Shown here: piece after piece, positions 30,620 to 47,592 of the stretch | Numbering within the stretch: the stretch's first letter is position 1 | Layout of the letters: the number at the start of each line of letters is the position of its first letter | Assembly (NCBI RefSeq): GCF_014218805.1 | Contig: NZ_JACJUV010000001.1 | Span: 3,360,501 to 3,424,500 of the forward strand | From: Teredinibacter franksiae | GTDB taxonomy: Bacteria; Pseudomonadota; Gammaproteobacteria; Pseudomonadales; Cellvibrionaceae | DNA length: 64,000 bases | Reading direction: 5' to 3' | Notes under the pieces: model-generated | Told to the model about the DNA's origin: nothing | Seen by the model: only the letters and a program-made list of their open reading frames with translations | The model's database searches: none | Position numbers and translations under genes: made by a program

Positions 30620-30727
30620 CCATCTCAGCCAGCGGACTTACGTTCCGGATTTTATTTTTACGGTAAAACGCTACGCTACCGCAAAAATAAAATCCTACAC
30701 TCCAGCCGCTGCTGCAGGGCGTTATGA
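30614..30727 (+). repeat. attC 6
   Basis: R'' ACATAAC, R' GTTATGA, 114 bp. AAACATAAC exactly complements its cassette start. The distal arm GCCGCTGCTGCAGGGC is shared with attC 20, 37 and 39. Confidence 0.9.
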
Positions 30728-31108
30728 GCGCGGTTCGAAAATAAATAAAACGAGTCATGTGCTTGATTTACGGCACGTTGTAGCGGGTCTCTCGGCGTTA
30801 ACGTACGTAGGTTCTTTGTGTCTCGCTAGCTTTGTTCCTGGTGCCAAATAGTCGTTTTATAGGTGGTGGCAAATAGCACTTCGCATTTGGCCACCGCTTT
30901 TATAGTATGGGGTTTGTTGGTGGGGCGGTTTGTTCTTTCCTGCTGCCATTGGCAAGCTAAAATAAAACGTGGTTTTGTTGTGGTACTTACTGCCGCCGCA
31001 TAACCAGTCGCTCCATAAGACGCCAACTGCGCAGTTTGTTTTACGCATTCCGCTTCGCTACATTTTAGCGTAAAACAAACTACACAGTAGGCGCTTATGA
31101 GCTTAGCG
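30722..31108 (+). repeat. R-cassette copy 1 (cassette 7)
   Basis: First of ten copies of an ORF-less cassette. Two hairpins stand out: H1 at 30824-30843 (CGCTAG / CTGGTG) and H2 at 30865-30895 (GGTGG-CAAAT / ATTTG-CCACC with one bulged G). In this copy H2 has a C-G pair where most copies have T-A, a compensatory double change. It ends in a type-A attC. Confidence 0.95.
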
Positions 31109-31114
31109 TTAGGG
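31008..31114 (+). repeat. attC 7 (type A)
   Basis: R'' GCATAAC, R' GTTAGGG, 107 bp. Type-A inner stem with GACGCC, GTTTTACGC and GCGTAAAAC. The outer arms GCATAACCAGTCG and CTTAGCGTTA are common to all R-cassettes. Confidence 0.92.
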
Positions 31115-31147
31115 CTCATTAAAGAATGCGCTGAAATTGGAGTAAAA

Positions 31148-31867
31148 GTGTTTAGAAAAATATTATTTGTTGTTTGCTTATCGGTCTCGGCCTTTTTTGC
31201 AGATGCCTCAGAGCTTAAAGAAGAAGCTCTAAAGTCTGTGTTCAAACCATCTTTTGCATCAACTGAAGGTGAGCAAAAAGCCGGTACTGCATTTGTTGTC
31301 AAATATAAGGAACACTTTTATGCGGTAACAGCGCATCACCTATTTAGTGAAGCTGGAGGGTTTAGTCGAGAATATAATTGGAAAGAATTGCAGAGTTTAG
31401 TTAGCGAGGTTTCACTTCAAAGCTTAAGTGATGAGGAAACCAAGTATTCAACTGATAAGGCTATTAAGATCAAGGGAGCTAAGTCTGTATCAAATTGGAC
31501 GGGCAAAAATGACATAGCTATTTTTATGCTTAATCAGAAGCCTGCTAACTATCTGGCACTGGCCGAATCACCTCCAAAAGTCGGAGAAACTGTCTGGCTG
31601 TATGGATTAGTTTATAATCGATCACCTGAATTACTTCTACATAAAGCGGTAGTTGTAGAATACGACAAAAATTGGATCTCGTATCAGTTTGCGGATTCCG
31701 GGTTAACTTTGAACGGTACTAGCGGTGCGGCTATTTTGAATTCTCGCGGCCAAGTAGTAGGTATAAATTTAAGTGGTGGAAAGCAAGAGGGTAAACTATA
31801 CGGGTACGGTAACCCTCTAGTTTCAATACAAAGCATATTTAAAAAGTATGTTCAGTTGAAGCCCTAA
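31148..31867 (+). CDS. Cassette 8: secreted trypsin-like serine protease
   Basis: A 239-residue protein from GTG 31148, which has a GGAG ribosome site 6 bp upstream and opens directly into a signal peptide (FRKILFVVCLSVSAFF). The frame is also open back to an ATG inside attC7. The chymotrypsin-fold triad is visible in order: His in AVTAHHLF, Asp in NDIAIFML, Ser in LNGTSGAAILN. GTAFVV before the His and GQVVGI after the Ser also fit. It would act in the periplasm or outside the cell. Substrate unknown. Degradative proteases are uncommon cassette cargo. Confidence 0.78.
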   Translation: MFRKILFVVCLSVSAFFADASELKEEALKSVFKPSFASTEGEQKAGTAFVVKYKEHFYAVTAHHLFSEAGGFSREYNWKELQSLVSEVSLQSLSDEETKYSTDKAIKIKGAKSVSNWTGKNDIAIFMLNQKPANYLALAESPPKVGETVWLYGLVYNRSPELLLHKAVVVEYDKNWISYQFADSGLTLNGTSGAAILNSRGQVVGINLSGGKQEGKLYGYGNPLVSIQSIFKKYVQLKP

Positions 31868-31948
31868 CAAAGCTATGCAATTGACGTCAAAAAGCTTCGT
31901 TCGTTTCACTCTCTACACTTTTAGCCGCAATTGATAGCGGCGTTATGA
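31862..31948 (+). repeat. attC 8
   Basis: R'' CCCTAAC, R' GTTATGA, 87 bp. AAGCCCTAAC nearly complements its cassette start (GTTAGGGCTC). Confidence 0.88.
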
Positions 31949-32332
31949 GCGCGGTTCGAAAATAAATAAAACGAGTCATGTGCTTGATTTACGGCACGTT
32001 GTAGCGGGTCTCGCGGCGTTTAAGTAAGTCGGTTCTTTGTATCTCACCAGCTTTGTTCCTGGTGCCAAATTGTAGTTTTATAGGTGGTGGTAAATAGCGC
32101 TTCGCATTTAGCCACCGCTTTTATAATATGGGGTTTGTTGGTGGGATGGTGTGTTCTTTCCTGCTGCCATTGACAAGCTAAAATAAAACGTGGTTTTGTT
32201 GTGGTACTTACTGCCGTCGCATAACCAGTCGGTCACCCTGACGCTGCATACTCCGCCGCTTTTTTGTGCATTCCGCTTCGCTTCATTCTTGCACAAAAAG
32301 CAGCTCCATATGCAACGCAGGCTACCTTAGCG
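31943..32332 (+). repeat. R-cassette copy 2 (cassette 9)
   Basis: 390 bp, in tandem with copy 3. Hairpins H1 (CACCAG / CTGGTG) and H2 (TAAAT / ATTTA) are intact. It ends in a type-B attC, although the body is the same as in type-A copies. Confidence 0.95.
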
Positions 32333-32338
32333 TTATGA
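32219..32338 (+). repeat. attC 9 (type B)
   Basis: R'' GCATAAC, R' GTTATGA, 120 bp. Type-B inner stem with CTGACGCTGCATACTCC, TTTTTGTGCATTC and GCAACGCAGGCTACC. Confidence 0.92.
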
Positions 32339-32722
32339 GCGCGGTTCGAAAATAAATAAAATGAGTCATGTGCTTGATTTACGGCACGTTGTAGAGAGTC
32401 TCTCGGCGTTAAAGTACGTAGGTTCTTTGTGTCTCACCAGCTTTGTTCCTGGTGCCAAATAGTAGTTTAATAGGTGGTGGTAAATAGCACTTCGCATTTA
32501 GCCACCACTTTCGTAATATGGAGTTTGTTGGTGGGGTTGTGTGTTCTTTCCTGCTGCCATTGGCAAGCTAAAATAAAACGTGGTTTTGTTGTGGTACTTA
32601 CTGCCGTCGCATAACCAGTCGGTCACCCTGACGCTGCATACTCCGCCGCTTTTTTGTGCATTCCGCTTCGCTTCATTCTTGCACAAAAAGCAGCTCCATA
32701 TGCAACGCAGGCTACCTTAGCG
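32333..32722 (+). repeat. R-cassette copy 3 (cassette 10)
   Basis: 390 bp, immediately following copy 2 and close to it in sequence. H1 and H2 are intact and the attC is type B. Confidence 0.95.
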
Positions 32723-32728
32723 TTAGGG
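32609..32728 (+). repeat. attC 10 (type B)
   Basis: R'' GCATAAC, R' GTTAGGG, 120 bp, nearly identical to attC 9. Confidence 0.92.
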
Positions 32729-32735
32729 CCTTCGG

Positions 32736-33029
32736 ATGAGTAGAGAATTTTGGAATCAAGCCAGAAAAAGAAGAAACTTATTCTTCATTTGGTGGTTATG
32801 CTGGATTCCGTTTGGAGTGATGTATACAGCTTTTGATAGCTATTTATTTAGTGAAGAATCACCATTACCATTTTTTACCCCCTTAATACTCTGGGGTGTG
32901 CTTTGGTTCTATATTTCACTAAGAATTCGAAAATTGAAATGTCCCAAGTGTAACGAGAGAGCATTTGAGCACTGTATGTTTTTCATGAAACATGCTAAAT
33001 GTAAATGTTGTGGTTATTCATATAAATAA
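32736..33029 (+). CDS. Cassette 11: membrane protein with a zinc-ribbon tail
   Basis: A 97-residue protein with two hydrophobic segments (near 14-33 and 44-61) followed by a four-cysteine cluster CPKC and CKCCG in the cytosolic-looking C-terminus, suggesting a small metal-binding ribbon. Family not recognised. It starts 7 bp after attC10. Confidence 0.72.
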   Translation: MSREFWNQARKRRNLFFIWWLCWIPFGVMYTAFDSYLFSEESPLPFFTPLILWGVLWFYISLRIRKLKCPKCNERAFEHCMFFMKHAKCKCCGYSYK

Positions 33030-33042
33030 TGAGAATTGACAT

Positions 33043-33144
33043 CCCTAACAAATTACTCCTGCTGACATTTTTTCCGTTGCTTCTTTTGTGCTTAATAGCA
33101 CAAAAGAAGCAACGGAAAAAATGCAGCAGAGTAAGGCGTTAAGC
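33043..33144 (+). repeat. attC 11
   Basis: R'' CCCTAAC, R' GTTAAGC, 102 bp. A long near-perfect inner stem (CCGTTGCTTCTTTTGTGC with its complement). Closely related to attC 28. Confidence 0.9.
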
Positions 33145-33154
33145 AGTAATTGAT

Positions 33155-33466
33155 ATGCAACGAATCGGGCAAGAAATATTAGAAACCTGGAAGGACAAAC
33201 TTTCGGAGAAGTTAGGTAAGTCAGTAGAGGAGCTTTCAGAAAGAGGCTTATCTGCATCTGATTTTAATAGCTCGTCAAAGGTGGTTCTAAGCAATCCAGG
33301 TGAGCTGGAATGTACTTTTAGTCATGCATTTTCAGTCGTTAATGCAGAGGCTGGTAAAGTGGCAGTTTTTACCGAGCACTGTGGATACCATGAGTTTTAC
33401 CTAAATGGTATGAAAGTATCAGATGTGCTTACAGAAGAATATTGGGATGAAGATTACCGCGCTTAA
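33155..33466 (+). CDS. Cassette 12: hypothetical protein
   Basis: A 103-residue soluble acidic protein (MQRIGQEILETWKDKLSEKL...). Family not recognised. It starts 10 bp after attC11, and its TAA stop lies in the attC12 R'' box. Confidence 0.72.
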   Translation: MQRIGQEILETWKDKLSEKLGKSVEELSERGLSASDFNSSSKVVLSNPGELECTFSHAFSVVNAEAGKVAVFTEHCGYHEFYLNGMKVSDVLTEEYWDEDYRA

Positions 33467-33565
33467 CAAAGCCAGCAAATCTGACCTCCGTAAACTGTCT
33501 TCTTTTTTGCAAAAACACGCAAAAAAGCAGCCAATTCACTCCGGCAGTTTCTGGCGGCGTTAAGC
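33461..33565 (+). repeat. attC 12
   Basis: R'' GCTTAAC, R' GTTAAGC, 105 bp. R'' and R' are perfect complements. The same family as attC 15, and related to attC 13. Confidence 0.92.
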
Positions 33566-33571
33566 ACTATT

Positions 33572-33913
33572 ATGGATAAAGTAGAAATTGTAAATTGCGT
33601 AAAGATTCTCTGGGAAAATGTGAAAAAAGACTGCGAATTCTCCTATGAAATTATTCATGAGGTGGATCGTTTTTTAAATGGAGAGCTAAAGGGGTTGGAA
33701 GGACTAAAAGAGCTGGGTACAGGACTATACAAGGAGGTAGGTCGAAGCAACTATCCTGATGGGGATATTAGAAGGGACGGTATTCGATCTATGTCACACT
33801 TTGTTATGGGGTATTGGGACATTGCTTCAGACCGAGAGAATGAAAGCAAAAGACGTTTACAAATCGCAACCTCAGGTATGAATAACTATTTAAGTAATCA
33901 CGCAAATGCTTAA
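33572..33913 (+). CDS. Cassette 13: hypothetical protein
   Basis: A 113-residue soluble, helix-rich protein with GDIRRDGIRSMSHFVMGYWD in its C-terminal half. Family not recognised. It starts 6 bp after attC12. Confidence 0.72.
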   Translation: MDKVEIVNCVKILWENVKKDCEFSYEIIHEVDRFLNGELKGLEGLKELGTGLYKEVGRSNYPDGDIRRDGIRSMSHFVMGYWDIASDRENESKRRLQIATSGMNNYLSNHANA

Positions 33914-34006
33914 CAAAAGTAGCCAATTGACCTCCGCAAACTGTCTTCTTTTTTGCGGAGCAAAAAAACAGCCAGCCTGCTCCGGCAATTGCTACTGGCG
34001 TTATGC
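33908..34006 (+). repeat. attC 13
   Basis: R'' GCTTAAC, R' GTTATGC, 99 bp. R'' complements its own cassette start (GTTAAGC at 33559). Confidence 0.9.
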
Positions 34007-34026
34007 TCTCAAGGAATTTCTAATTC

Positions 34027-34533
34027 ATGGCAATGATTTTAACGGGTAAAATATCCGAACAAGGCTTTGAGCAGGACTACGTACCGAATACAGAGTATTT
34101 CTACTCCGTTAGCGGGAAAGAGATAAAAGCTCCTTCAACTATAGTTTGGTGCAACGACTGTCAAAAACTATGTGATGGCGAGTTATTACCTAGCCTTGCT
34201 GCCATTAATGACAGAATGGAAAGGTTTCGCTCCGGCGCTTTGGATGAGGTTCTTGGGCTAGACGGCGTAAAGCGAAATTCGGAAATTTCTGAAATGGAGT
34301 TGCTCCGAAATCTCAGAAAAGCTAGGAAGTCAGAAGCAAAGTGTCTGGTTTGCGGGGGCTCTAGCATAACCGAAGTAGATGAGCCTGAAGGCTATTCTCC
34401 AGAGTACCCACCAATAAAATTGACAGTAAAGTACATGAACGGAGAGCATCAACTTTTGATTTATATTTCCGGTCATGCAAATCTAAAGTCAATGGGCAAG
34501 GTGGTGCTAAATGAAGAAGGGCAAATAGCATAA
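34027..34533 (+). CDS. Cassette 14: hypothetical protein with paired CxxC motifs
   Basis: A 168-residue protein with two cysteine pairs, CNDCQKLC near residue 42 and CLVCGG near residue 107, which could form one zinc site around a basic helical region (ELLRNLRKARKSEAK). The C-terminus is beta-rich. No family recognised. Confidence 0.74.
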   Translation: MAMILTGKISEQGFEQDYVPNTEYFYSVSGKEIKAPSTIVWCNDCQKLCDGELLPSLAAINDRMERFRSGALDEVLGLDGVKRNSEISEMELLRNLRKARKSEAKCLVCGGSSITEVDEPEGYSPEYPPIKLTVKYMNGEHQLLIYISGHANLKSMGKVVLNEEGQIA

Positions 34534-34636
34534 CAAGCGTAATCAGTGCGAAATTTATTCCGGCGCTTGTTTTGTGGCGGAAAAGACTGCCACAAAAAAA
34601 TCACCTCCATAAATTCGCCTGTTACGGGCGTTAGGC
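34528..34636 (+). repeat. attC 14
   Basis: R'' GCATAAC, R' GTTAGGC, 109 bp. R'' complements its cassette start (GTTATGC). Confidence 0.9.
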
Positions 34637-34641
34637 ATTAA

Positions 34642-35058
34642 ATGAGCATCATGAAATTTAGCTGGGCTGAGCTTATAAATGAAATAGCTAGGATGCATAT
34701 TTCAGGCCTAGGCGAGTCTGAAATTTCATCTAAGCTTGCCGAAGCTTCTCTGAGTGGGTGCGGGGAAATTGAGCGTGTAGAAATTGACTCCACAATTGCA
34801 TCACCATTTATTCAGCTGAATATGCCGCGGATTGAAGTGTCACATCATGACAAAGTCATAACTGCGAATTTTCTAGCATTGAATTTTTCTGCAGTAAACG
34901 TCGACGATCTGGATGGTTTAGAAAAAGGTACTTCTATCAGCTTTAGTACACGTATAATTAAATCAAATGGTCCGTTTCCCGGTGTCGGTATTTCGGAGTT
35001 TGATGATGAAAGGGAAATATTAATAATGTTGGGCACTAAGGAATCCGAACTTGCCTAA
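34642..35058 (+). CDS. Cassette 15: hypothetical protein
   Basis: A 138-residue soluble protein: a short helical start, then beta-rich sequence. ATG 34642 or ATG 34651 could be used; neither has a strong ribosome site. Family not recognised. Confidence 0.72.
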   Translation: MSIMKFSWAELINEIARMHISGLGESEISSKLAEASLSGCGEIERVEIDSTIASPFIQLNMPRIEVSHHDKVITANFLALNFSAVNVDDLDGLEKGTSISFSTRIIKSNGPFPGVGISEFDDEREILIMLGTKESELA

Positions 35059-35157
35059 CAAAGCCAGCAAATCTGACTTCCGTGAGCTGTCTTCTTTTTT
35101 GCAAAAACACGCAAAAAAGCAGCCATCTCACTCCAGCAGTTTCTGGCGACGTTAGGA
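35053..35157 (+). repeat. attC 15
   Basis: R'' GCCTAAC, R' GTTAGGA, 105 bp. R'' complements its cassette start (GTTAGGC). Near-identical inner stem to attC 12. Confidence 0.92.
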
Positions 35158-35181
35158 GTCCATGTTCACGCGAGAAAAATC

Positions 35182-35736
35182 ATGAAAGAAATTCAAGAAA
35201 GGTTAAAAATATTAATTCAGTCAGCGATCATTGAGATTATCGATAATAATTCCGAAAAAATTGTTTCGTATAAGAAAAAATCACCTACCGAAGTATTTAT
35301 AAGCGTCTCCGGGCTGGCGGTAGATGTTTTTCCTGGCCAGCATGGCGGTATTAGTATTTCACTTATCCCAGCAGGTGTAAGCGAAACTGAAGTAGCTGAA
35401 TGCGCTGATTTAGATTTATATTTTGATGGTAGTAAAAGTCTACCGGCATGTAAATCGCTCTCAACCTACGTAAGTAGCCTAGTTGAAGGTGATTTGTCTT
35501 GTGATGAGGAGTCATGGTATAAAGAAATATCTAATATTATCTTTATAGCAACGGCGATGGCTGCCATGTCTAGTAAGGTTGTTGAATCACTTTGTAGTGT
35601 AAATATTCAAGCATATACGCCATCTGGTTCAGAATATACAAGGTTTTTTAAGTTCTATGTATTCGACAGAGAATCGAATTCCAAATTAAGAAATTATTGC
35701 GAAGCTGTTTTACTTAATAGATATGTACTCTCCTAA
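35182..35736 (+). CDS. Cassette 16: hypothetical protein
   Basis: A 184-residue protein with a helical N-terminus, a beta-rich middle, and a hydrophobic stretch (IIFIATAMAAMSS) near residue 117 that could be a buried helix rather than a membrane span. Family not recognised. Confidence 0.74.
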   Translation: MKEIQERLKILIQSAIIEIIDNNSEKIVSYKKKSPTEVFISVSGLAVDVFPGQHGGISISLIPAGVSETEVAECADLDLYFDGSKSLPACKSLSTYVSSLVEGDLSCDEESWYKEISNIIFIATAMAAMSSKVVESLCSVNIQAYTPSGSEYTRFFKFYVFDRESNSKLRNYCEAVLLNRYVLS

Positions 35737-35841
35737 CAAAGCTATCAAATTGACGGCTTTTCCGTCGCTTGTTTTGTGGCTTAACGCTACGCTACCACAA
35801 AACAATCAACTCCAAAGCCGCAATTTATAGCGGCGTTATGA
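35731..35841 (+). repeat. attC 16
   Basis: R'' TCCTAAC, R' GTTATGA, 111 bp. R'' complements its cassette start (GTTAGGA). Inner stem with GACGGCTTTTCCGT, shared with attC 24. Confidence 0.92.
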
Positions 35842-36241
35842 GGCTAGGGCGAATTAAAGTATTTTAACTTCCACTTTTGTAGTGGGGTGCTAAATCGGTA
35901 GGAGCTTTATCGTAGTGTGGCAGTTGCAGCCGTAGGCCACAACTAAGCACTTCGTAGAAAACGGGTGCTAGTTAGTCGCTCAATTAAATTACAAAAAGCG
36001 CAAATTAATTGAGCTTTTTACAGTAGTAGAATTGACGGTAGGAGTTGTTCGTTCCTTTTAAGTGGTAGTCGGACAGTGTGTTGCCACAGGAAGTCCAGGT
36101 TAGTTAAAAAGGTTGGTTTATGCGTTCTAAGAGGTTAACGAGTGTGGCTCATAACAAGGCGCTCAAACATCAGCCCAGCGAGCTGGGCTTGGACCTCCGT
36201 TACGGCGCTTCGCGCCTTCACTGCGGCCGTTTAGCGCGGCG
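35836..36241 (+). repeat. Cassette 17: ORF-less cassette
   Basis: About 405 bp without a usable gene on either strand. It contains CACTTCGTAG and GTTCGTTCCTT, short motifs that recur in the other ORF-less cassettes, and a near-palindrome CAATTAAATT / AATTAATTG around 35980-36010. Confidence 0.7.
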
Positions 36242-36247
36242 TTAAGT
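36149..36247 (+). repeat. attC 17
   Basis: R'' TCATAAC, R' GTTAAGT, 99 bp. GCTCATAAC complements its cassette start (GTTATGAGG). Confidence 0.9.
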
Positions 36248-36269
36248 GCCCCCGTGAATAGAGAAATGT

Positions 36270-36731
36270 ATGTATAAATTAGTATCCCTAATAGGTCTGA
36301 TATTGTTTCCATTTCAAGCTATCGCTGGCGCATGGGGAGTCGGTGCATTTGATAACGATACTGCTCTAGATTGGGTGAGTGAATTATCCGACTCAGATAA
36401 TCCGTTAGTGCTTTTTAAAAGTGCAATCGATGCCCCATCTATAGGTGGTTATATTGATGCTGACATTTGTTCCAATGCCATTGCTGCATCAGAAATTGTA
36501 GCAATTGTGTTCAATGCATCGAGTGGGGAATATAGCAAAGTAATATTGAAGCTTGCAAAATCGCTAAAACCGCAGTTGAGTAAAGAAGCAGTCCCGAGAG
36601 CAGAAAAAGCTGTGGCAATATGTAGTGGTGAGTCGGGATCAGAATTAAAACAATTGTGGAATGAGTCGAAGGAATGGAGTGCCTATGTTGGTGGGTTACA
36701 GCATCGCCTGAAATCCGCACTTAACAAGTAG
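36270..36731 (+). CDS. Cassette 18: exported DUF4259-like protein
   Basis: A 153-residue protein with a signal peptide (LVSLIGLILFPFQAIA) directly followed by GAWGVGAFDNDTALDW, the N-terminal signature of DUF4259 proteins. Most members of that family lack a signal peptide, so this may be a periplasmic version. Function of the family is unknown; members often sit in immunity-type gene neighbourhoods. Its two cysteines (ICS and ICS) may form a disulfide. Confidence 0.8.
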   Translation: MYKLVSLIGLILFPFQAIAGAWGVGAFDNDTALDWVSELSDSDNPLVLFKSAIDAPSIGGYIDADICSNAIAASEIVAIVFNASSGEYSKVILKLAKSLKPQLSKEAVPRAEKAVAICSGESGSELKQLWNESKEWSAYVGGLQHRLKSALNK

Positions 36732-36834
36732 CTGCACCTGACAAATATTGCTGCGCTCGTTTTGTGTATGTCGCGCAGCTCCATTCTACACAAAACGCTC
36801 TCCACAATATTTTCAGGTGAGCAAGGCGTTAGAA
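36719..36834 (+). repeat. attC 18
   Basis: R'' ACTTAAC, R' GTTAGAA, 116 bp. GCACTTAAC exactly complements its cassette start (GTTAAGTGC). Same family as attC 2, 29 and 38. Confidence 0.92.
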
Positions 36835-36850
36835 CTCACAAGGAGTATCA

Positions 36851-37273
36851 GTGCCACCAACATTTCTAGTATTTTTAGCATTTGTAATGTATGCGCCTCT
36901 CTTTTTTCTGGTTTTACTTGTTTGCGTCTGTATGCATTTTACTGGCAAGTACAGTAAGTACTCAATGCCCGTATTGGCTGTGTATTTTGCATTCCCAATA
37001 TCAATCGCTATTGCATGCTTAGTGGCATTGCCTGCCTTCCTCCTGTCTATAGCTGGCGTATATCTATCAGAGCAGTATCTTGTAGAGGCAGCATATCCTG
37101 TTAATGTCATTCTGGTGTCTTTAGCCGCAATTTTTTTCTTTGTAGTGTGCTATAAGTTGGTTAAAAAACTGTGCCTGTTGGCTTGGGCATGGGCATTAAA
37201 CAGGTGGCCTTTTGGCTTGTTTTATCAAGGCTCTAACAAGCATAGCCAGGCCGACATTAATTCCGGCGTTTGA
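36851..37273 (+). CDS. Cassette 19: polytopic membrane protein
   Basis: A 140-residue protein starting at GTG 36851 with a good ribosome site (AAGGAG). Four hydrophobic segments are visible. The coding frame continues about 40 bp into attC19 and stops at TGA 37271-37273, so its last 14 residues are encoded by recombination-site sequence. Family not recognised. Confidence 0.72.
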   Translation: MPPTFLVFLAFVMYAPLFFLVLLVCVCMHFTGKYSKYSMPVLAVYFAFPISIAIACLVALPAFLLSIAGVYLSEQYLVEAAYPVNVILVSLAAIFFFVVCYKLVKKLCLLAWAWALNRWPFGLFYQGSNKHSQADINSGV

Positions 37274-37343
37274 TTTTATGCTGGCCGCTACGCTAGCACA
37301 AAATTAAACGTCTCCATCAATGCGCCTGCTATGGGCGTTATGC
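37231..37343 (+). repeat. attC 19
   Basis: R'' CTCTAAC, R' GTTATGC, 113 bp. Overlaps the 3' end of the cassette 19 gene. Confidence 0.9.
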
Positions 37344-37370
37344 ACAGAGTATTGCGAATAAAATATCTAT

Positions 37371-37718
37371 ATGAATGGAAGGTTGTTTCTCAATAAATAT
37401 GACAGGGCCAAATATATTAGCGGGTGGATTACTGTTCTATTGGCGAGTCTAGGATTATGCTCAGCGGTGATTTACGGAGAGCGTATAGCCGTGCCTATAG
37501 GGCGATTATGTTTTGCTATGCTCATAACGTATATTAATCTCGAAAGTCTTGTTGGTGGAATTATGCCGGGTAAAGCTACCGGCGTACGAACATCTGCAAT
37601 AGCGCGAGAAAGTATGCCAATTCGGTTTTGGTCTTCCATTATTTTTATGGAGCTAATAGCAATAGCATTTTTTATAGCTGGAACGTACCAATTATGTGTT
37701 CAAGTGGCTTATGCATAA
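37371..37718 (+). CDS. Cassette 20: small membrane protein
   Basis: A 115-residue protein with three hydrophobic segments (near 16-35, 44-62 and 87-110) separated by basic loops. Family not recognised. Its stop codon lies in attC20. Confidence 0.7.
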   Translation: MNGRLFLNKYDRAKYISGWITVLLASLGLCSAVIYGERIAVPIGRLCFAMLITYINLESLVGGIMPGKATGVRTSAIARESMPIRFWSSIIFMELIAIAFFIAGTYQLCVQVAYA

Positions 37719-37825
37719 CAAACTCAGCCAGCAGGACCTCCGTTCCGGCGCTTGTTTTTGTGCTGGTCGCTACGCTTGCACAAAAAAATCACCTCCACTA
37801 CGGCCGCTGCTGCAGGGCGTTAGAA
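37713..37825 (+). repeat. attC 20
   Basis: R'' GCATAAC, R' GTTAGAA, 113 bp. TGCATAAC complements its cassette start (GTTATGCA). Same family as attC 6, 37 and 39. Confidence 0.92.
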
Positions 37826-38228: not shown

Positions 38229-38245
38229 GCGGGCAAGATTTAGAT

Positions 38246-38596: not shown

Positions 38597-38599
38597 AAT

Positions 38600-38713
38600 G
38601 CCTAACCAAGCTAGCAACCTGACACTGCATGCTACGCTTCTTTTCGGTGTGGCTGCGCCACAATACACCAAAAAGCTGCTCCGCACGCAGTGCAGGTTCT
38701 AGCGACGTTATGA
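38600..38713 (+). repeat. attC 22
   Basis: R'' GCCTAAC, R' GTTATGA, 114 bp. R'' complements its cassette start (GTTAGGC at 38222). Confidence 0.92.
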
Positions 38714-39097
38714 GCGCGGTTCGAAAATAAATAAAACGAGTCATGTGCTTGATTTACGGCACGTTGTAGAGCGTCTCTCGGCGTTAAAGTAAGTCGGCTC
38801 TTTGTATCTCACCAGCTTTGTTCCTGGTGCCAAATAGTAGTTTTACAGGTGGTGGTAAATAGCACTTCGCATTTAGCCACCGCTTTTTTAATATGGGGCT
38901 TGTTGGTGGGGTGGTGTGTTCGTTCCTGCTGCCATTGGCAAACTAAATTAAAAACGTGGTTTTGTTGTGGCGCCAACCGCCGCCGCATAACCAGTCGGTC
39001 AACCTGACGCTGCATACTCCGCCGTTTTTTGTGCATTACGCTTCGCTTCATTCTTGCACAAAAAGCAGCTCCATATGCATCGCAGGCTACCTTAGCG
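38708..39097 (+). repeat. R-cassette copy 4 (cassette 23)
   Basis: 390 bp. H1 and H2 are intact. This copy has the AACTAAATTAAAAACG variant, one base longer than in copies 1-3, which shifts any minus-strand frame. Type-B attC. Confidence 0.95.
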
Positions 39098-40504: not shown

Positions 40505-40611
40505 CAAATGTATCAAATTGACGCCATTTACTTCGTTTCGTTTTGCGGTGGCTTCGCCACTTTACCGCAAACTACACTACATAAATAGCGCAATTTATAC
40601 AGGCGTTAGGT
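40499..40611 (+). repeat. attC 25
   Basis: R'' ATCTAAC, R' GTTAGGT, 113 bp. ATCTAAC complements its cassette start (GTTAGAT). Confidence 0.92.
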
Positions 40612-40616
40612 TTTCT

Positions 40617-40907
40617 ATGAATTCAGACAATAAGCATTTATATCATGGAAGTGACTGGGCGGAGCACGAAGATGTTCTCATTGGAAATAAAGAGGGACTA
40701 GAAGCTCTACGCTTTGCAATTGATGAGGCTATAGAAAAAGGTGAGTCAAAAACGGAAATCGGAGAATTTCTAGCCATACGGTGCCTAGATTCTAAGTATT
40801 TCGAAAAACAAGGAAACGTAAATACTTTCGGATCAAAGATCGCTTTCGTCTTAATAGGCGTTGCATTTATTTTAACTGCTTTTTTGGTTTGGTTAGCAGT
40901 TTCATAA
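40617..40907 (+). CDS. Cassette 26: small protein with C-terminal membrane anchor
   Basis: A 96-residue protein from ATG 40617, 6 bp after attC25. An acidic soluble part (residues 1-70) is followed by one hydrophobic segment (IAFVLIGVAFILTAFLVWLAV) at the extreme C-terminus, a tail-anchored layout. The upstream-extended frame runs through attC25 and is not used. Family not recognised. Confidence 0.7.
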   Translation: MNSDNKHLYHGSDWAEHEDVLIGNKEGLEALRFAIDEAIEKGESKTEIGEFLAIRCLDSKYFEKQGNVNTFGSKIAFVLIGVAFILTAFLVWLAVS

Positions 40908-40923
40908 TGTATCAAGTATCCAA

Positions 40924-40930
40924 ACCTAAC
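40924..40930 (+). repeat. attC 26, left remnant (R'' box)
   Basis: ACCTAAC; with the bases before it (CAAACCTAAC) it exactly complements the start of cassette 26 (GTTAGGTTT). The rest of this attC is at 43285-43374, beyond the IS91-like insertion. Confidence 0.85.
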
Positions 40931-41178
40931 AAATAAGGATATGTCGCGCGAAGCCGCGACCTATCCTATTGTTGAACGAGCCCGTGCTGCAGGCTCTCTC
41001 TATAGTAAATAAGTAAAATGGGTTTTGTTAACCGGAAGGGTGTGTCGACGTTATGTCTTTATGGAAGGCGAGTGCAAGCCTCGCCTGTTAGACGATAAAA
41101 AAATACTGATTTTATTTCATGGATGCTTCTCCAGTTTGAATGAATTGATTCCCTTTGGTGTCTTCCCTTTTAATCTTT

Positions 41179-42273
41179 TTAGTCTGGAAACAAACTAAAA
41201 TTCGGGTCAATTTCTGCTTTTATTGATTTCCTTGGCGTGATTACCGCAATCACTCGCATGGTGCCTTTGCACTTTTTACACTTGAAGACTGGTTTTTTTC
41301 GGGTGTTCGGTATGGGTGTTTCAACGCATAAAATGTACTGTATCGTCTTCAGTAGGCGTTTGGCATTGCCGTGTAAAAAACCGTAATCGCGTGCGCGCCT
41401 AAAGCCTTTGGGTAACGTATGTTGTAGCACCAGCGCCACAAATTCCTCACCCTGCAATGTGCGCGTTTTGACATCCCCTGTGTTGCTTTCGGTATAGCGG
41501 AGTGTCACTTCATTCCCATCATTCTTAATAATGTTTTTATTGCTGATTACTCCACGATACAAATATCGTGAAAGATATTGAAGTGCAGGTAAACCACGGC
41601 CAACACGCTGGCATTGCGTCACCCATTTTTTCGGTGTTATCGGTACGGTAAATCCTGCTTCCGATAGGGCGCGTAATAATGCGCCTCGAAATTTGGCGGC
41701 AAGGGCGCGTCCATTAAACAGGTATTTCCCCTTCAGCGTACGCCATTCACGACGAGCACGGTGCACACCACCTGCAGGCACTACAATATGCACGTGAGGG
41801 TGGTAGTCGAGCCGACGGGTATGCGTGTGCAATACAGCTGTCATCGCCAACTCAGCGTGAAAGCCTTTTTTATTGCGCGCGAACGTCTTGAGTGTTTCGA
41901 CGGCGCATTTGAATAGCAAGCTGTAAACGACTTTGGGGTTTGCTTTGGCCAGCGCTCTTAATTGCTCGGGTAAGGTAAACGTGGCCATAAAATAATTCAC
42001 CGGTAACAGCTTCTGTTCTTGACGCTCAAGCCAGTCAGATGTGGCGCTGTGTTGGCACTGATTACACGCGCGGTGACCGCAGGAGCGGTGTTTTTGGGTG
42101 GTATAGGGGCATGCATCACAGGCAAACGTCATTTGCGCATATTGTTGCGTACGGCAACCGGTGATGGCATTAATGGCAGACCACTGATCGTCACGGGTTT
42201 GCGCCCCGTATTGGTGTTTGAAACGATCGAGGTATTGGGTGATGATGGAAGACAGTTCGATTGAGGCAAGCAT
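41179..42273 (-). CDS. tnpA: IS91-family HUH transposase
   Basis: A 364-residue rolling-circle transposase. The N-terminal zinc-binding region has CDACPYTTQKHRSCGHRACN and CQ. The metal-binding HUH motif is HPHVHIVVPAG near residue 155, and the catalytic tyrosine region is YLSRYLYRG near 233. A C-terminal CKKCKG adds a second cysteine pair. It nicks and transfers single-stranded DNA at the element ends. Its start follows the recombinase stop by 1 bp. Confidence 0.92.
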   Translation of the reverse strand: MLASIELSSIITQYLDRFKHQYGAQTRDDQWSAINAITGCRTQQYAQMTFACDACPYTTQKHRSCGHRACNQCQHSATSDWLERQEQKLLPVNYFMATFTLPEQLRALAKANPKVVYSLLFKCAVETLKTFARNKKGFHAELAMTAVLHTHTRRLDYHPHVHIVVPAGGVHRARREWRTLKGKYLFNGRALAAKFRGALLRALSEAGFTVPITPKKWVTQCQRVGRGLPALQYLSRYLYRGVISNKNIIKNDGNEVTLRYTESNTGDVKTRTLQGEEFVALVLQHTLPKGFRRARDYGFLHGNAKRLLKTIQYILCVETPIPNTRKKPVFKCKKCKGTMRVIAVITPRKSIKAEIDPNFSLFPD

Positions 42274-42274
42274 A

Positions 42275-43183
42275 CTATTCAGCCTCCGTCGTAGGGACGA
42301 TATTGAGCCGATTTACCATGCGGTTAATAATCTTGTCAGTATCTTTTTGCGTTACGTCGGTTAGCTGGGTATAGAGGGCCGTTGTTTTTGGACAATCGTG
42401 TCCCATCTCCGTTTGAATGGCGCGCTGGGTTACGCCATTTTCCACCAATAAAGCGCCGTAGCAATGGCGCAGTGTGTGTGGTGTTGCGTGTTTGTGTATA
42501 CCAACAGAAGCTAGGATGGCTTTAAATGATTTTTGTAGCCCCCCGCGGTCCATGATTTTGGTAGCGCTTTGGCGTTCTTGGTGATTGCGCCCGGCGGGGA
42601 AAATCATATCAGGGTGTCGATGTGTGGCCCAATATTGCCTGAGGTGAATCAGTGTTGCTTGCGGTAAGGTGACGAACCGGTCTTTTTTACCCTTTCCTAG
42701 GCGGATATGGACCTTCATGCGCTGCGCATCAATATCACCAATGCGTAGGTTTAGTGTTTCGTGAATACGGAGTCCCATGCTGAATGCCGTTAGTATAAAT
42801 GCCTGATAGCGGCGTTCATGCGTGCCATTGATCATCCGCTCAATTTCTTTGAGGGTTAATATATCCGGCAGAACTTTCTTCTGAGGGGGTTTAACAATGT
42901 CGACCCATTGCCAGTGCTTGTTGAGTACGTGTTTATAGAAAAACTGCAGGCCATTACGGTCCACCTTGACCGTGCTCCAGGAGTGGGTTTTTGTGAGCGA
43001 AGAGAAGTAGTCTTTGAGGTCATCTTGTGTCAATCGGTCGGGAACGCGATCAAAGAATTCGGTGATGCGCCGCAGTGCTCGACTGTATCCGTCAATGGTA
43101 TTGTCAGCCTTGCCTTGACGGCGCAATGCGTTAATATGACGTTGGTACAGCGAACCAAATCGTGCTTGTTGTGCCTTTCTCAT
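42275..43183 (-). CDS. Tyrosine recombinase accompanying the IS91-like element
   Basis: A 302-residue phage-integrase-type recombinase with an N-terminal SAM-like domain and the catalytic residues in order: Arg in GLRIHETLNL, Lys in GKGKKDRFV, His-x-x-Arg in HTLRHCYG, His in EMGHDC, Tyr in TTALYTQLT. It lacks the extra helix region that marks integron integrases, so it is not the missing IntI. The pairing of such a recombinase with an IS91-type transposase is known in that family; its job in transposition is unclear. Confidence 0.88.
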   Translation of the reverse strand: MRKAQQARFGSLYQRHINALRRQGKADNTIDGYSRALRRITEFFDRVPDRLTQDDLKDYFSSLTKTHSWSTVKVDRNGLQFFYKHVLNKHWQWVDIVKPPQKKVLPDILTLKEIERMINGTHERRYQAFILTAFSMGLRIHETLNLRIGDIDAQRMKVHIRLGKGKKDRFVTLPQATLIHLRQYWATHRHPDMIFPAGRNHQERQSATKIMDRGGLQKSFKAILASVGIHKHATPHTLRHCYGALLVENGVTQRAIQTEMGHDCPKTTALYTQLTDVTQKDTDKIINRMVNRLNIVPTTEAE

Positions 43184-43284
43184 AAATAATGCCTCAAGTT
43201 GTCGTACTCGGATGTGAGTACGTAGGGGGATTGTTTATGAGAAATCAGAATTTTGATACTTGCCGCAAAGCGGCTTCGTTCAAC

Positions 43285-43374
43285 AAAACAATCAACGACC
43301 GCCAGCAAGCTGGCTCGGACCTTCGTTTCGGCGCTTCGCGCCTACACTGCGGCCCGTTATTGTAGGCGTTATGA
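43285..43374 (+). repeat. attC 26, right part
   Basis: Continues the attC interrupted at 40930; R' GTTATGA at 43368-43374. The inner stem has GCCAGCAAGCTGGC. ACAATCAA near the junction pairs with TTATTGT before R', so the site folds if the insertion is removed. Confidence 0.82.
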
Positions 43375-43673
43375 GCGCGGTTCGAAAATAAATAAAACGA
43401 GTCATGTGTTTGATTTATGGCGCGTTGTAGCAGGTCTCTCGGCGTTAAAGTAAGTCGGTTATTTGTATCTCACCAGTTTCTTTCCTGGTGCCAAATAGTC
43501 GTTTTATAGGTGGTGGTAAATAGTACTTCGCATTTAGCCACCACTTTCATAATATGGGGTTTGTTGGTGGGGTGGTGTGTTCTTTCCTGCTGCTATCGGC
43601 AAACTAAATTAAAAACGTGGTTTTGTTGTAGCGCCAACCGCCGCCGCATAACCAGTCGCTTATGAGCTTAGCG
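43369..43673 (+). repeat. R-cassette copy 5 (cassette 27), collapsed attC
   Basis: 305 bp: a normal R-cassette body with intact H1 (CACCAG / CTGGTG) and H2, but its type-A attC has lost its inner stem. The body carries its own private substitutions (for example GTGTTTGATTTATGGCGCG). Confidence 0.95.
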
Positions 43674-43679
43674 TTAAGT
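43646..43679 (+). repeat. attC 27, collapsed to 34 bp
   Basis: R'' GCATAAC and R' GTTAAGT are present with only CAGTCGCTTATGAGCTTAGC-like sequence between them. The missing part lies between two CGCT repeats of type A, as expected from slippage across a folded hairpin. Confidence 0.8.
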
Positions 43680-43688
43680 GTACGAAGT

Positions 43689-44003
43689 ATGATTGAGAGT
43701 TTTTCGAAGTTAAAAGATAAGCCTCTACTGCTTAGTGGCCTTGGTTGGCTGCTATTTCCGGGTATGTATCTTTTGGTCGGTGTTTTCACTGCTCTTGGCG
43801 CTTCTGTAGAAACATCCTTTTTGATTGCAGCTCCAGCTGGAGTACTAGGATTTGTATTTTGGGTTGCTGCCCTTACTTTTGGAGCCAGTGGATTACTTAA
43901 ATCCAACAATATAGCAGCATCACTTGGTGGTCTAGTTGCAAGTATTGTTCCTTTGGCGTTCTTAGGGTTTGCTTTTTGGGTGGCACTAAATGGCGGTGTA
44001 TAA
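43689..44003 (+). CDS. Cassette 28: small membrane protein
   Basis: A 104-residue protein from ATG 43689 with three hydrophobic, Gly/Ala-rich segments and no charged residue in its C-terminal two-thirds apart from one Glu and one Lys. The frame is also open back to an ATG in the collapsed attC27. Family not recognised. Confidence 0.72.
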   Translation: MIESFSKLKDKPLLLSGLGWLLFPGMYLLVGVFTALGASVETSFLIAAPAGVLGFVFWVAALTFGASGLLKSNNIAASLGGLVASIVPLAFLGFAFWVALNGGV

Positions 44004-44006
44004 AAC

Positions 44007-44108
44007 ACTTAACAAATTGCTCCTGCTGACATTTTTTCCGTTGCTTCTTTTGTGCTTAATAGCACAAAAGCATCCACTCCACAAATTCAGCAGAGCAAGG
44101 CGTTATGC
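44007..44108 (+). repeat. attC 28
   Basis: R'' ACTTAAC, R' GTTATGC, 102 bp. AACACTTAAC complements its cassette start (GTTAAGTGT). Sister of attC 11. Confidence 0.92.
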
Positions 44109-44121
44109 ATTTAGAGTCGCT

Positions 44122-44487
44122 ATGAAGGAAAAAGAACTTAAGTCTGCTGCTAAATCATTAGCAGATATGGCTGCTTCATCATCAATCGAGTTGAATCAAT
44201 TGCTCGAAGATGAAAAGGGTACAATTACATTTAGCCTATTAAATGTTAAAGGTGATGAAGTAGTGGGTGCAAAGCTAAGATCTTGGTGGTCCACATCTAT
44301 GTCTAAGTATAGAGGTTCCGATATCAAGGAAATAGATGTAGAGCTAAAATATGATTCATCTAGTGTAAAAACAAATAGAGATAAAACAGCTCTATTCAAG
44401 CTAAACACAAAATGTATAATTACTACGGTAAAAAATACATTTATCGCAGAATCAGAAAATTCCGTATGGTGGCAGAAAAATGCATAA
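44122..44487 (+). CDS. Cassette 29: hypothetical protein
   Basis: A 121-residue soluble protein from ATG 44122, followed by AAGGAAAAAG coding. A helical N-terminus is followed by a beta-rich body. The upstream-open frame runs through attC28. Family not recognised. Confidence 0.72.
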   Translation: MKEKELKSAAKSLADMAASSSIELNQLLEDEKGTITFSLLNVKGDEVVGAKLRSWWSTSMSKYRGSDIKEIDVELKYDSSSVKTNRDKTALFKLNTKCIITTVKNTFIAESENSVWWQKNA

Positions 44488-44595
44488 CAAAAAGCTGCAC
44501 CTGACATTTTTTGCTACGCTCAATTGTGTATGTCGCGGTGCTCCATTTTACACAATTGCTCTCCGCAAAAACTGCAGGTGAGCTTGGCGTTATAA
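44482..44595 (+). repeat. attC 29
   Basis: R'' GCATAAC, R' GTTATAA, 114 bp. AATGCATAAC exactly complements its cassette start (GTTATGCATT). Same family as attC 2, 18 and 38. Confidence 0.92.
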
Positions 44596-44607
44596 GCTTT
44601 CGAAACG

Positions 44608-45123
44608 ATGAAATATTTATTCTTAATTATTAGTTTGGTAACAGCAGAGTCTTGGGGCGATGAAGAACTTTCGTGTGATTATTCTCATGAAGGGTATGTT
44701 TCTATTTTCGGAGATGATGACGTAATCCTTCGCGCTTCTGTAAAAGGTCGTAAATGCTACGAAACGGCGCTGAACATCAAGCTCATGAGTAAAGAGCGCG
44801 TCTTATACAGTTATAGCGCTCCTTTTAAATCTCATGTTGCAACACACTGGGAAGATCTCGAGTTGCTAGATGTTAAGAAGTATGTAGATAGTTTATTTAA
44901 GGAGTATAGGTTTTCTTCGTGCGCGGAATTGTTGCCACAGAAATTGAGTCCATTAGACGGGTGGAATTACAATAGACTGCTTGTAGCTGAAATTGAATAT
45001 AGTAAGTTTAGAGCTATGCCTTGCAAATCATATACACATCAAACTCACTACGAGGTGCATCGTGTAATTGTATTCCCAATATCTAAAAGAGTAGGGGTTC
45101 CAGTTGCCGAGTATGGCTTATAA
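44608..45123 (+). CDS. Cassette 30: exported hypothetical protein
   Basis: A 171-residue protein with a short signal peptide (MKYLFLIISLVTAESWG) and four cysteines in the mature part, consistent with a periplasmic or secreted protein. Family not recognised. Its TAA stop is in the attC30 R'' box. Confidence 0.74.
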   Translation: MKYLFLIISLVTAESWGDEELSCDYSHEGYVSIFGDDDVILRASVKGRKCYETALNIKLMSKERVLYSYSAPFKSHVATHWEDLELLDVKKYVDSLFKEYRFSSCAELLPQKLSPLDGWNYNRLLVAEIEYSKFRAMPCKSYTHQTHYEVHRVIVFPISKRVGVPVAEYGL

Positions 45124-45228
45124 CAAACAGCTCAAACCGACCTCCACTGCGTTGCTCATTTTGTGCTTTTCAGCTACGCTGGCACAAAATAATCAACTCC
45201 GTTCCGGCGGCTTAGCTGGGCGTTATGA
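45118..45228 (+). repeat. attC 30
   Basis: R'' TTATAAC, R' GTTATGA, 111 bp. GCTTATAAC complements its cassette start (GTTATAAGC). Confidence 0.92.
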
Positions 45229-45610
45229 GCGCGGTTCGAAAATAAATAAAACGAGTCATGTGCTTGATTTACGGCACGTTGTAGCGGGCCTCTCGGCGTT
45301 AAAGTAAGTCGGTTATTTGTATCTCGCCAGTTTCATTCCTGGTGCCAAATAGTAGTTTTATAGGTGGTGGTAAATAGCGCTTCGCATTTAGCCACCACTT
45401 TCATAATATGGGGTTTGTTGGTGGGGTGTTGTGTTCTTTCCTGCTGCCATCGGCAAACTAAATTAAAAACGTGGTTTTGTTGTAGCGCCAACCGCCGCCG
45501 CATAACCAGTCGCTCCATAAGACGCCTACTGTGTAGTTTGTTTTACGCATTCCGCTTCGCTACATTTTAGCGTAAAACAAACTACACAGTAGGCGCTTAT
45601 GAGCTTAGCG
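45223..45610 (+). repeat. R-cassette copy 6 (cassette 31)
   Basis: 388 bp, first of three in tandem. H1 reads CGCCAG / CTGGTG: the A-T pair became G.T, so pairing is kept. H2 is intact. Type-A attC. Confidence 0.95.
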
Positions 45611-45616
45611 TTATGA
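45500..45616 (+). repeat. attC 31 (type A)
   Basis: R'' GCATAAC, R' GTTATGA, 117 bp, R-cassette type A. Confidence 0.92.
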
Positions 45617-45998
45617 GCGCGGTTCGAAAATAAATAAAATGAGTCATGTGCTTGATTTACGGCGCGTTGTAGAGCGTCTCTCGGCGTTAAAGTAAGTCGG
45701 TTCTTTGTATCTCACCAGCTTTGTTCCTGGTGCCAAATAGTAGTTTTATAGGTGGTGGTAAATAGCGCTTCGCATTTGGCCATCGGTTTTTGTAATATGG
45801 GGTTTGTTGGTGGGGCGGTGTGTTCCTTCCTGCTGCCATTGGCAAGCTAAAATAAAACGTGGTTTTGTTGTGGCGCTTACTGCCGCCGCATAACCAGTTG
45901 CTCCATAAGACGCCAACTGCGCAGTTCGTTTTACGCATTCCGCTTCGCTACATTTTAGCGTAAAACAAACTGCACAGTAGGCGCTTATGAGCTTAGCG
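45611..45998 (+). repeat. R-cassette copy 7 (cassette 32)
   Basis: 388 bp. H2 shows two wobble-preserving changes (T.G in the inner arm; CCATC against GGTGG). Type-A attC. Confidence 0.95.
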
Positions 45999-46004
45999 TT
46001 ATGA
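45888..46004 (+). repeat. attC 32 (type A)
   Basis: R'' GCATAAC, R' GTTATGA, 117 bp. Confidence 0.92.
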
Positions 46005-46386
46005 GCGCGGTTCGAAAATAAATAAAACGAGTCATGTGCTTGATTTACGGCACGTTGTAGTGGGTCTCGCGGCGTTTAAGTAAGTCGGTTCTTTGTATCT
46101 CACCAGTTTCTTTTCTGGTGCCAAATGTAAGTTTTATGGGTGGTGGTAAATAGCACTTCGCATTTAGCCACCACTTTTATAGTATGGGGTTTGTTGGTGG
46201 GGTGGTGTGTTCGTTCCTGCTGCCATCGGCAAACTAAATTAAAAACGTGGTTTTGTTGTAGCGCCAACCGCCGCCGCATAACCAGTCGCTCCATAAGACG
46301 CCTACTGCGCAGTTCGTTTTACGCATTCCGCTTCGCTACATTTTAGCGTAAAACAAACTACACAGTAGGCGCTTATGAGCTTAGCG
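45999..46386 (+). repeat. R-cassette copy 8 (cassette 33)
   Basis: 388 bp, third of the tandem. The H1 loop differs (TTTCTTTT) but the stem CACCAG / CTGGTG is kept. Type-A attC. Confidence 0.95.
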
Positions 46387-46392
46387 TTAGGG
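46276..46392 (+). repeat. attC 33 (type A)
   Basis: R'' GCATAAC, R' GTTAGGG, 117 bp. Confidence 0.92.
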
Positions 46393-46814
46393 CGGTTTAA
46401 ATATTTTTGGTATTTACGTAATTTTATTTTCAAGTATTCTAAAAGTTGGCGTCAGTGTGTTGCAGAAAATAGTCGTAGTATTATCGGTATAAGTTACACC
46501 AGTAAGCTTCACAATGTACAAAGAGTAATGTGTTCGTGTAGGGCATATTGGCAGCACGTAAATATTTCGAATTAAACAACGTCAACCCATTGCGGTTGTT
46601 CAAGCTAAGGTAGTCACTAGCAAGTTAAAGCATGTCGTTCTATCCATCATTTAGGTGGTATTTATGGGCAGCATTGCTAAACTCGTGGTCTACATTAAAG
46701 TACAGTGGGGCGTAGCCCTAACAAGGTTGTCATGCGGGACTTCCGTTTCGTTGCCGCTTTTTGTGGTGGATACCACAAAAATCAACAACTGCACTCCAGC
46801 CCCATACAACGGCG
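46387..46814 (+). repeat. Cassette 34: cassette without a clear gene
   Basis: About 430 bp. The only plus frame (46375-46575, 66 codons) would start at an ATG inside attC33 and has no ribosome site or recognisable product, so I do not call it. Unrelated to the R-cassettes on both sides. Confidence 0.65.
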
Positions 46815-46820
46815 TTATGA
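46716..46820 (+). repeat. attC 34
   Basis: R'' CCCTAAC, R' GTTATGA, 105 bp. GCCCTAAC complements its cassette start (GTTAGGGC). Confidence 0.9.
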
Positions 46821-47203
46821 GCGCGGTTCGAAAATAAATAGAACGAGTCATGTGCTCGATTTACGGCACGTTGTAGAACGTCTCTCGGCGTTAAAGTAAG
46901 TAGTTTATTTGTATCTCACCAGCTTTGTTCCTGGTGCCAAATAGTAGTTTTATGGGTGGTGGAAAATAGTACTTCGCATTTAGCCACCGCTTTTACAATA
47001 TGGGGTTTGTTGGTGGGGTGGTGTGTTCGTTCCTGCAGCCATTGGCAAGCCAAAATAAAACGTGGTTTGGTTGTGGTGCTTACCGCCGTCGCATAACCAG
47101 TCGGTCAACCTGACGCTGCATACTCCGCCGCTTTTTGTGCATTCCGCTTCGCTTCATTCTTGCACAAAAAGCAGCTCCATATGCAACGCAGGCTACCTTA
47201 GCG
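46815..47203 (+). repeat. R-cassette copy 9 (cassette 35)
   Basis: 389 bp. H1 is intact. H2 has the one mismatch seen in the family (GGTGG-AAAAT against ATTTA). Type-B attC. Confidence 0.95.
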
Positions 47204-47209
47204 TTATGA
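47091..47209 (+). repeat. attC 35 (type B)
   Basis: R'' GCATAAC, R' GTTATGA, 119 bp. Confidence 0.92.
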
Positions 47210-47592
47210 GCGCGGTTCAAAAATAAATGAAACGAGTCATGTGCTTAATTTACGGCACGTTGTAGCGGGTCTCTCTGCGTTAAAGTAAGTAGGCTCTTTG
47301 TATCTCACCAGTTTCTTTCTTGGTGCCAAATAGTAGTTTGATAGGTGGTGGTAAATAGCACTTCGCATTTGGTCACCGCTTTTATAGTATGGGGTTTGTT
47401 GGTGGGGTGGTGTGTTCGTTCCTGCTGCCATTGGCAAGCTAAAATAAAACGTGGTTTTGTTGTGGTGCTTACCGCCGCCGCATAACCAGTCGGTCAACCT
47501 GACGCTGCATACTCCGCCGTTTTTTGTGCATTACGCTTCGCTTCATTCTTGCACAAAAAACAGCTCCATATGCAACGCAGGCTACCTTAGCG
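47204..47592 (+). repeat. R-cassette copy 10 (cassette 36)
   Basis: 389 bp, in tandem with copy 9. H1 reads CACCAG / TTGGTG (a G.T wobble replaces G-C) and H2 has two wobbles, so both stems remain paired. Type-B attC. Confidence 0.95.

Follow-up and report, generated by a model that had tools for sequence, protein, structure and literature searches.

The window analyzed here is a stretch of 64,000 nucleotides from Teredinibacter franksiae (contig NZ_JACJUV010000001.1, positions 3,360,501 to 3,424,500), and its main feature for the present purpose is a short integron cassette that recurs along it. An earlier note on this DNA had listed ten copies of the cassette and proposed that it is a mobile gene for a structured RNA with two hairpins, H1 and H2. 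With copy 2 as a BLASTN query against the window, ten copies were recovered, each extending from a GTTATG cut site to an attC site (Table 1). The ten starts had been placed correctly, with the G of each GTTATG (positions 30721, 31942, 32332, 38707, 43368, 45222, 45610, 45998, 46814, and 47203) lying one base before them, following the convention that sets the cassette boundary between the G and the TT. The cassette measures approximately 388 nt overall, of which the body accounts for approximately 288 nt, and all ten copies are integron cassettes without a conserved open reading frame (ORF). Two types of attC are found on the one cassette body within this genome, the first in copies 1 and 6–8 and the second in copies 2–4 and 9–10.

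Table 1. Cassette copies, helices of reference copy 2, and related cassette types in the window (window coordinates).
Feature	Positions	Strand	Basis or remark
Copy 1 (body and attC)	30722–31108	+	BLASTN and boundary sites
Copy 2 (reference for helix coordinates)	31943–32332	+	BLASTN and boundary sites
Copy 3 (tandem with copy 2)	32333–32722	+	BLASTN and boundary sites
Copy 4	38708–39097	+	BLASTN and boundary sites
Copy 5 (shortened attC)	43369–43673	+	BLASTN and boundary sites
Copy 6	45223–45610	+	BLASTN and boundary sites
Copy 7 (tandem)	45611–45998	+	BLASTN and boundary sites
Copy 8 (tandem)	45999–46386	+	BLASTN and boundary sites
Copy 9	46815–47203	+	BLASTN and boundary sites
Copy 10 (tandem)	47204–47592	+	BLASTN and boundary sites
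P0 5' arm, copy 2	32015–32021	+	GGCGTTT (GGCGTTA in most copies); RNAalifold and counts; no covariation above control
Conserved core with H1	32045–32066	+	CACCAG 32045–32050, loop, CTGGTG 32059–32064; most conserved stretch across genera
P0 3' arm, TGGTGCC	32060–32066	+	Overlaps 3' strand of H1; possible alternative partner of P0 5' arm
Hairpin H2	32086–32116	+	32086–32095 with 32106–32116; own versus swapped arms z -4.5 and -5.8
Hairpin H3	32133–32178	+	32133–32144 with 32167–32178; 12 bp; family-wide z -5.4
Second cassette type	28415–28926	+	No + strand ORF of at least 80 aa; start GTTATATGGCTCTGCCTTT similar to members from other genera
Third cassette type	35836–36241	+	No + strand ORF of at least 80 aa; begins GTTATGAGGCTAGGGCG; also at L038/L039 in own genome

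The cassette ends carry complementary R boxes (GTTRRRY at the start and RYYYAAC before attC), which form at least 6 of 7 pairs in 78 of the 81 full-length distinct members of the family (from 22 genomes), compared with 116 of 400 random stretches. Amplification had been proposed to have taken place within this array; most copies sit elsewhere in the genome. Across the whole genome (G000) there were 41 matches, comprising 39 near-full copies, a number far above chance (E-values from 1.1e-148 to 1.7e-100), and two partial ones. Copies lie on the minus strand at approximately 64–80 kb and 1.03–1.05 Mb, with other sites at 2.42 Mb (a fragment), 2.77–2.79 Mb, and 3.39–3.41 Mb (the window), and single copies at 3.077 and 3.186 Mb. 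The 39 bodies reduce to 31 distinct sequences with an average column identity of 93%; identical bodies occur among them and some copies appear mosaic by eye. An IntI protein scoring above the curated cut-off is encoded at C1:1048752-1049690, adjoining the array at 1.03–1.05 Mb, and no integron integrase above cut-off was found among the 10 window proteins scanned. The recombinase at 42275–43183 of the window scored under the integron-integrase cut-off. It is a tyrosine recombinase that lies inside the array next to an IS91-family transposase (together 41179–43183, minus strand), and a similar recombinase is present at C1:2802333-2803115.

The most conserved stretch of the family is a core with the approximate consensus UAUCUCnSCAGUUUCGUUCCUGRUGCC, kept across genera while its flanks diverge. 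The same cassette was sought in other Cellvibrionaceae, as the earlier note had suggested, and diverged relatives were found. A DNA search of 58 relatives (own genome included) matched one further genome, G007; the matches cover the core and its surroundings, and elsewhere the G007 copies are strongly diverged. When up to 3 mismatches were allowed, the core pattern matched 3 of 144 genomes of the family, again counting the own genome. Scanning GTDB contigs for the exact pattern yielded six stretches, namely two in Bs31, two in a Cellvibrionaceae metagenome-assembled genome (MAG), one in an Alcanivoracaceae MAG, and one that is probably due to chance. This last stretch (L080, from a Bacteroidetes MAG) is devoid of cassette features. 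Bs31 is a cultured Alteromonadaceae bacterium, and four copies were found in it. A covariance model (R1) matched 3 of 390 genomes of the order and 1 of 369 of the class, the latter being the own genome. Its refined version (R2) also detects members in genomes left empty by the core pattern search: it matched 15 of 144 genomes of the own family (8 of 32 genera), 7 of 46 in a second family (that of G414), and 6 of 390 of the order, including one genome in each of two further families, one of them doubtful; in the class sample only the own genome was found. The match in G466 has both the core and the cassette ends, and the R2 matches G903/L127 (degenerate core) and G266/L174 (core motif not found) are doubtful members. 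Stricter filters were applied in searches across more than 40 genomes, where weak members can be missed. No relatives were found in the plasmids searched or in the phages searched with one query (from G886), and the exact core pattern was not found in viral contigs.

Multiple copies also occur elsewhere, with 13 cassettes in G164 (15 match rows, two of which stem from internal duplication), 6 matches in G886, and 4 in G881. In two of the G164 cassettes (L097 from 502 and L112 from ~1465) a segment of ~100 nt covering the core and H2 is duplicated internally, so the core–H2 module itself can repeat inside one cassette. Against Rfam 15, the window gave no matches at gathering score. Across 20 loci from relatives the sole match was a group II intron (RF02005) at L164:1896-2137, which lies near, but outside, a family member in G086.

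A small protein had been argued against on the basis of an indel that shifts the minus-strand frame between copies (AAGCTAAAATAAAACG versus AACTAAATTAAAAACG). The indel is present as described, and six-frame tests on four paralogue sets (49 of the 81 sequences, 24 frame tests) likewise gave no clear coding signal. Codon phase had no clear effect on the variable sites, the ratio of the synonymous share to expectation ranged from 0.70 to 1.29 (descriptive values without a significance test), gaps of one or two bases were common in three of the four sets, and the longest frames varied from member to member. None of 10 representative translations scored above the curated cut-off of Pfam, with one match at E 0.034. 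A conserved ORF between genomes was rejected, as the six-frame matches scatter over many frames in the way that DNA conservation gives. Many members do hold ORFs of 40–110 codons, and in several second-family genomes one frame runs open across the core. In G000 and G007, however, the core-spanning frame meets a stop 8–16 codons beyond the core in 28 of 29 members (24/25 and 4/4, respectively), which together with the codon-phase and gap results tells against an encoded small protein on either strand. This explanation is disfavored and we regard it as highly improbable.

The variation reported for the two hairpins in the window was all recovered, including the single-copy H1 changes (CGCTAG, CGCCAG, and TTGGTG), the replacement of a T-A pair of H2 by C-G in copy 1 (a double change), and the H2 mismatch in copy 9. 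Among the 31 distinct bodies of the own genome, 99.0% of the cells of H1 and H2 are paired (100% for H1 and 98.4% for H2), a value matched by 18 of 500 shuffles. Their joint covariation score was reached by 11 of 500 shuffles, with a double change in one pair only, in three rows that probably represent one event. Minor alleles in H1 and H2 comprise 6 wobble-keeping transitions (A>G, C>T) and 1 other, against 33 and 43 elsewhere (Fisher p 0.048), and 24 of 32 columns are invariant compared with 144 of 256 elsewhere (p 0.056). Covariation is marginal with the own-genome copies alone, but it became strong for H2 when distant relatives were included. Of the two hairpins proposed, H2 is real and H1 is weak, and two other helices had been overlooked, the 12-bp H3 and a 5' hairpin. 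In the own genome, H3 has 98.4% of its cells paired over the 31 copies, with 8 further pair types, and 4 of its 12 pairs are mostly G.U.

As the stems shift register in distant members, a register-free test was chosen for the comparison across the family. This alignment-free test took the duplex energy that each 5' arm gives when paired to its own 3' arm and compared it with the energies obtained after arms had been permuted among the representatives, 34 sequences from 20 genomes that were hand-picked for diversity out of the 81. (Alignment A5, with 48 sources, includes 25 of the 31 distinct own-genome bodies.) H2 gave z -4.5 with an 18-base 3' arm, and permutations as low were seen in 0 of 20000 at this length, 0 of 20000 at 16 bases, and 18 of 20000 at 20 bases. 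When 1518 window pairs were mapped for the same representatives, 14 pairs fell below z -4 and 1 above +4, the 14 being distributed over H2 (3), H3 (1), the 5' hairpin (1), attC (2), and the cassette 3' end (7). Values of about -5.8 were reached for H2, -5.4 for H3, about -4 for the 5' hairpin (-4.2 in the map), and -3.9 for a hairpin just before the core; attC, the positive control, gave about -5.4, which supports its folding. When one sequence per genome was used (19–20 sequences), z was -4.6 for H2, -3.8 for H3, -3.5 and -3.4 for the 5' hairpin, and -5.1 for attC. The covariation of H2, H3, and the 5' hairpin is above control. Across the family, the bases before attC show covariation with an internal segment as well as with the cassette start, in what looks like two alternative pairings.

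H1, on the other hand, was not upheld as a covarying hairpin. Its third pair is non-standard in 53 of 83 sequences of the wider family and its changes are mostly one-sided. The 3' strand CTGGTG is near-invariant and an upstream GGCATCA element offers a possible other partner, which indicates that the H1 region conserves sequence more than it conserves a hairpin. This alternative helix, P0 (GGCATCA with TGGTGCC), has 89.9% of its cells paired across genera, but it showed no covariation above control and was rejected as a covarying helix. When pairing between the core and the integrase locus was looked for (one locus, without a control), the strongest sites lay away from the start codon.

On these sequence data, each copy is probably a cassette carrying a structured, non-coding, and most likely regulatory RNA. 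The earlier proposal of a mobile structured RNA gene thus holds insofar as the element is cassette-borne, apparently non-coding, structured, and amplified, and does not hold for H1 as a covarying hairpin. The cargo would be an RNA of ~200–280 nt in the array's sense orientation, and would fold into the 5' hairpin, H2, H3, and probably a lineage-dependent pre-core hairpin, set around the conserved core. It might be transcribed by read-through of the array or from a promoter invisible to a consensus scan. The core may be the functional segment, in which case it most likely base-pairs with a target RNA or binds a protein, and duplication of the cassette would set copy number and hence the dosage of the RNA.

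The choice of strand was based on the mismatches. Among mismatches in own helices, G.T accounts for 60 of 118, compared with 139 of 444 in swapped helices (Fisher p 1.4e-4), and A.C for 8 of 118 compared with 34 of 444 (p 0.85); enrichment of G.T without A.C favors an RNA of the plus strand, with caveats. A number of results weigh against a plus-strand structured RNA. The sequences in the G.T test are related rather than independent, and attC, which works as DNA, also has some excess of G.T (14/60 vs. 34/266). The swap test is blind to strand, as shown by a similar value on the reverse complement of H2 (z -4.3), so that both the strand and the distinction between RNA and DNA rest on the G.T argument. 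With Watson-Crick pairs only, the own arms of H3 score 4.09, below the 4.54 of swapped arms, and H3 therefore depends on its G.U pairs; in the own genome it has no double change and is equaled by 461 of 500 shuffles. Column-wise counts gave no covariation for P0 and little for H1. The window-pair map is broader than a standard normal (sd 1.35, with 43 pairs below -3 and 20 above +3), shuffling of letters within windows leaves a mean z of -1.3 for H2 (the range for the tested helices being -1.3 for H2 to +0.2 for H3), and the pre-core hairpin with one sequence per genome gives -1.8 or -3.7 depending on the window. Folding of whole bodies only moderately beats shuffled sequences, with z values for 28 sequences of +1.4 to -4.8 (plus strand) and +1.4 to -4.2 (minus strand). 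Finally, a consensus scan of 30700–32740, which covers copies 1–3 only, gave no sigma-70-like promoter and no terminator.

An alternative is that the cassette is regulatory DNA, driving or modulating downstream cassettes with any RNA being incidental. When others assayed 29 Vibrio cassettes without genes, most proved to have promoter activity, and computational promoter prediction is reported to fail for such cassettes (PMC11014356). The lack of a consensus promoter in 30700–32740 is weak evidence against this alternative. A promoter role alone would not, however, require H2 and H3 to covary, and we consider this explanation fairly unlikely. Another view is that the structure belongs to the single-stranded cassette DNA, for example as an internal element competing with the folding of attC. 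It is known that attC sites take part in recombination in a folded, single-stranded form. In the window-pair map, the cassette 3' end covaries with the internal segment (z -6.3, the minimum) and with the cassette start (-6.1, expected from the R boxes), and the G.T excess of attC itself points the same way. A G.T enrichment of the body helices without one of A.C, and the G.U-rich H3, nevertheless fit a plus-strand RNA better, and a purely DNA-level structure appears unlikely.

It could also be argued that the cassette is selfish or neutral, multiplied by an efficient attC and conserved through recent spread and gene conversion. The high copy number, the identical bodies among the 39, and the mosaic-looking copies would agree with this, and selfishness was one of two options put forward for non-coding Vibrio cassettes (Boucher et al., 2006; PMC1382264). 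Neutral spread would leave unexplained the strong conservation of the core and the compensating arms across two families, and the finding of two attC types on the same body in one genome also speaks against it; such an origin seems quite improbable. A cassette-borne structured RNA is thus preferred over these alternatives.

Two further ORF-less cassette types of the window may be kin to the main family. The 28415–28926 type is repeated at L038 with a variant at L041 and holds a CCCCGTTCGTTCTTC motif, and its first bases match the 5' ends of members from other genera. The 35836–36241 type adjoins family members in G007 and shares the TTCGTTCCTTTT and GTTGCCAC motifs with the main family. It is conceivable, as a tentative extension, that integrons of several gammaproteobacterial families hold a class of RNA cassettes, in which a multi-hairpin RNA with a fixed core is repeatedly amplified, to as many as ~40 copies, with its dosage adjusted by recombination, and that the distant ORF-less types belong to one superfamily with it, acting in trans for the integron or the host.

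Gene-less cassettes have been candidates for promoters, RNAs, or parasites since they were first seen in Vibrio arrays. The present family provides an example that is apparently non-coding with helices covarying across two bacterial families, and probably more, and its multi-copy and few-copy genomes make expression and function testable. The earlier note knew of no description of it, and none was found in literature searches limited to open-licence PMC. The family is apparently undescribed, although cassette-borne RNAs and paralogous non-coding cassettes are already known. The former include sRNA-Xcc1, the small RNA of Xanthomonas integrons, which is likewise a non-coding RNA in an integron cassette and horizontally spread (PMC8876359, PMC12444791). 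Its Rfam model (RF02221) had no match in the whole genome at E up to 10. sRNA-Xcc1 was 88 nt in the first report (PMC2996969), compared with a body of ~280 nt with several hairpins here, and it travels with symE in an orientation opposite to most cassettes (PMC12444791), whereas the present element is alone in its cassette. Arrays of Saccharophagus contain a 140-bp repeat between genes, for which the relevant passages of the source mention no RNA family (PMC2386152). Gene-less cassettes bearing promoters in Vibrio (PMC11014356) and Treponema (PMC6557892) are also ORF-less and lie in arrays, but they are defined by promoter activity, and here no consensus promoter was seen in copies 1–3. The paralogous non-coding cassettes of Vibrio resemble the present family in having no ORF and many paralogues per array, with 45 and 34 copies in two strains of V. 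vulnificus and a conservation that suggests purifying selection; besides selfishness, a benefit to the integron, including as RNA, was considered for them (PMC1382264). These Vibrio families are reported to have no homologues outside the vibrios, and the relevant passages give no RNA structure for them (PMC1382264), in contrast to the family described here, which was found in other gammaproteobacterial families, with the own genome as its only representative in the class sample.

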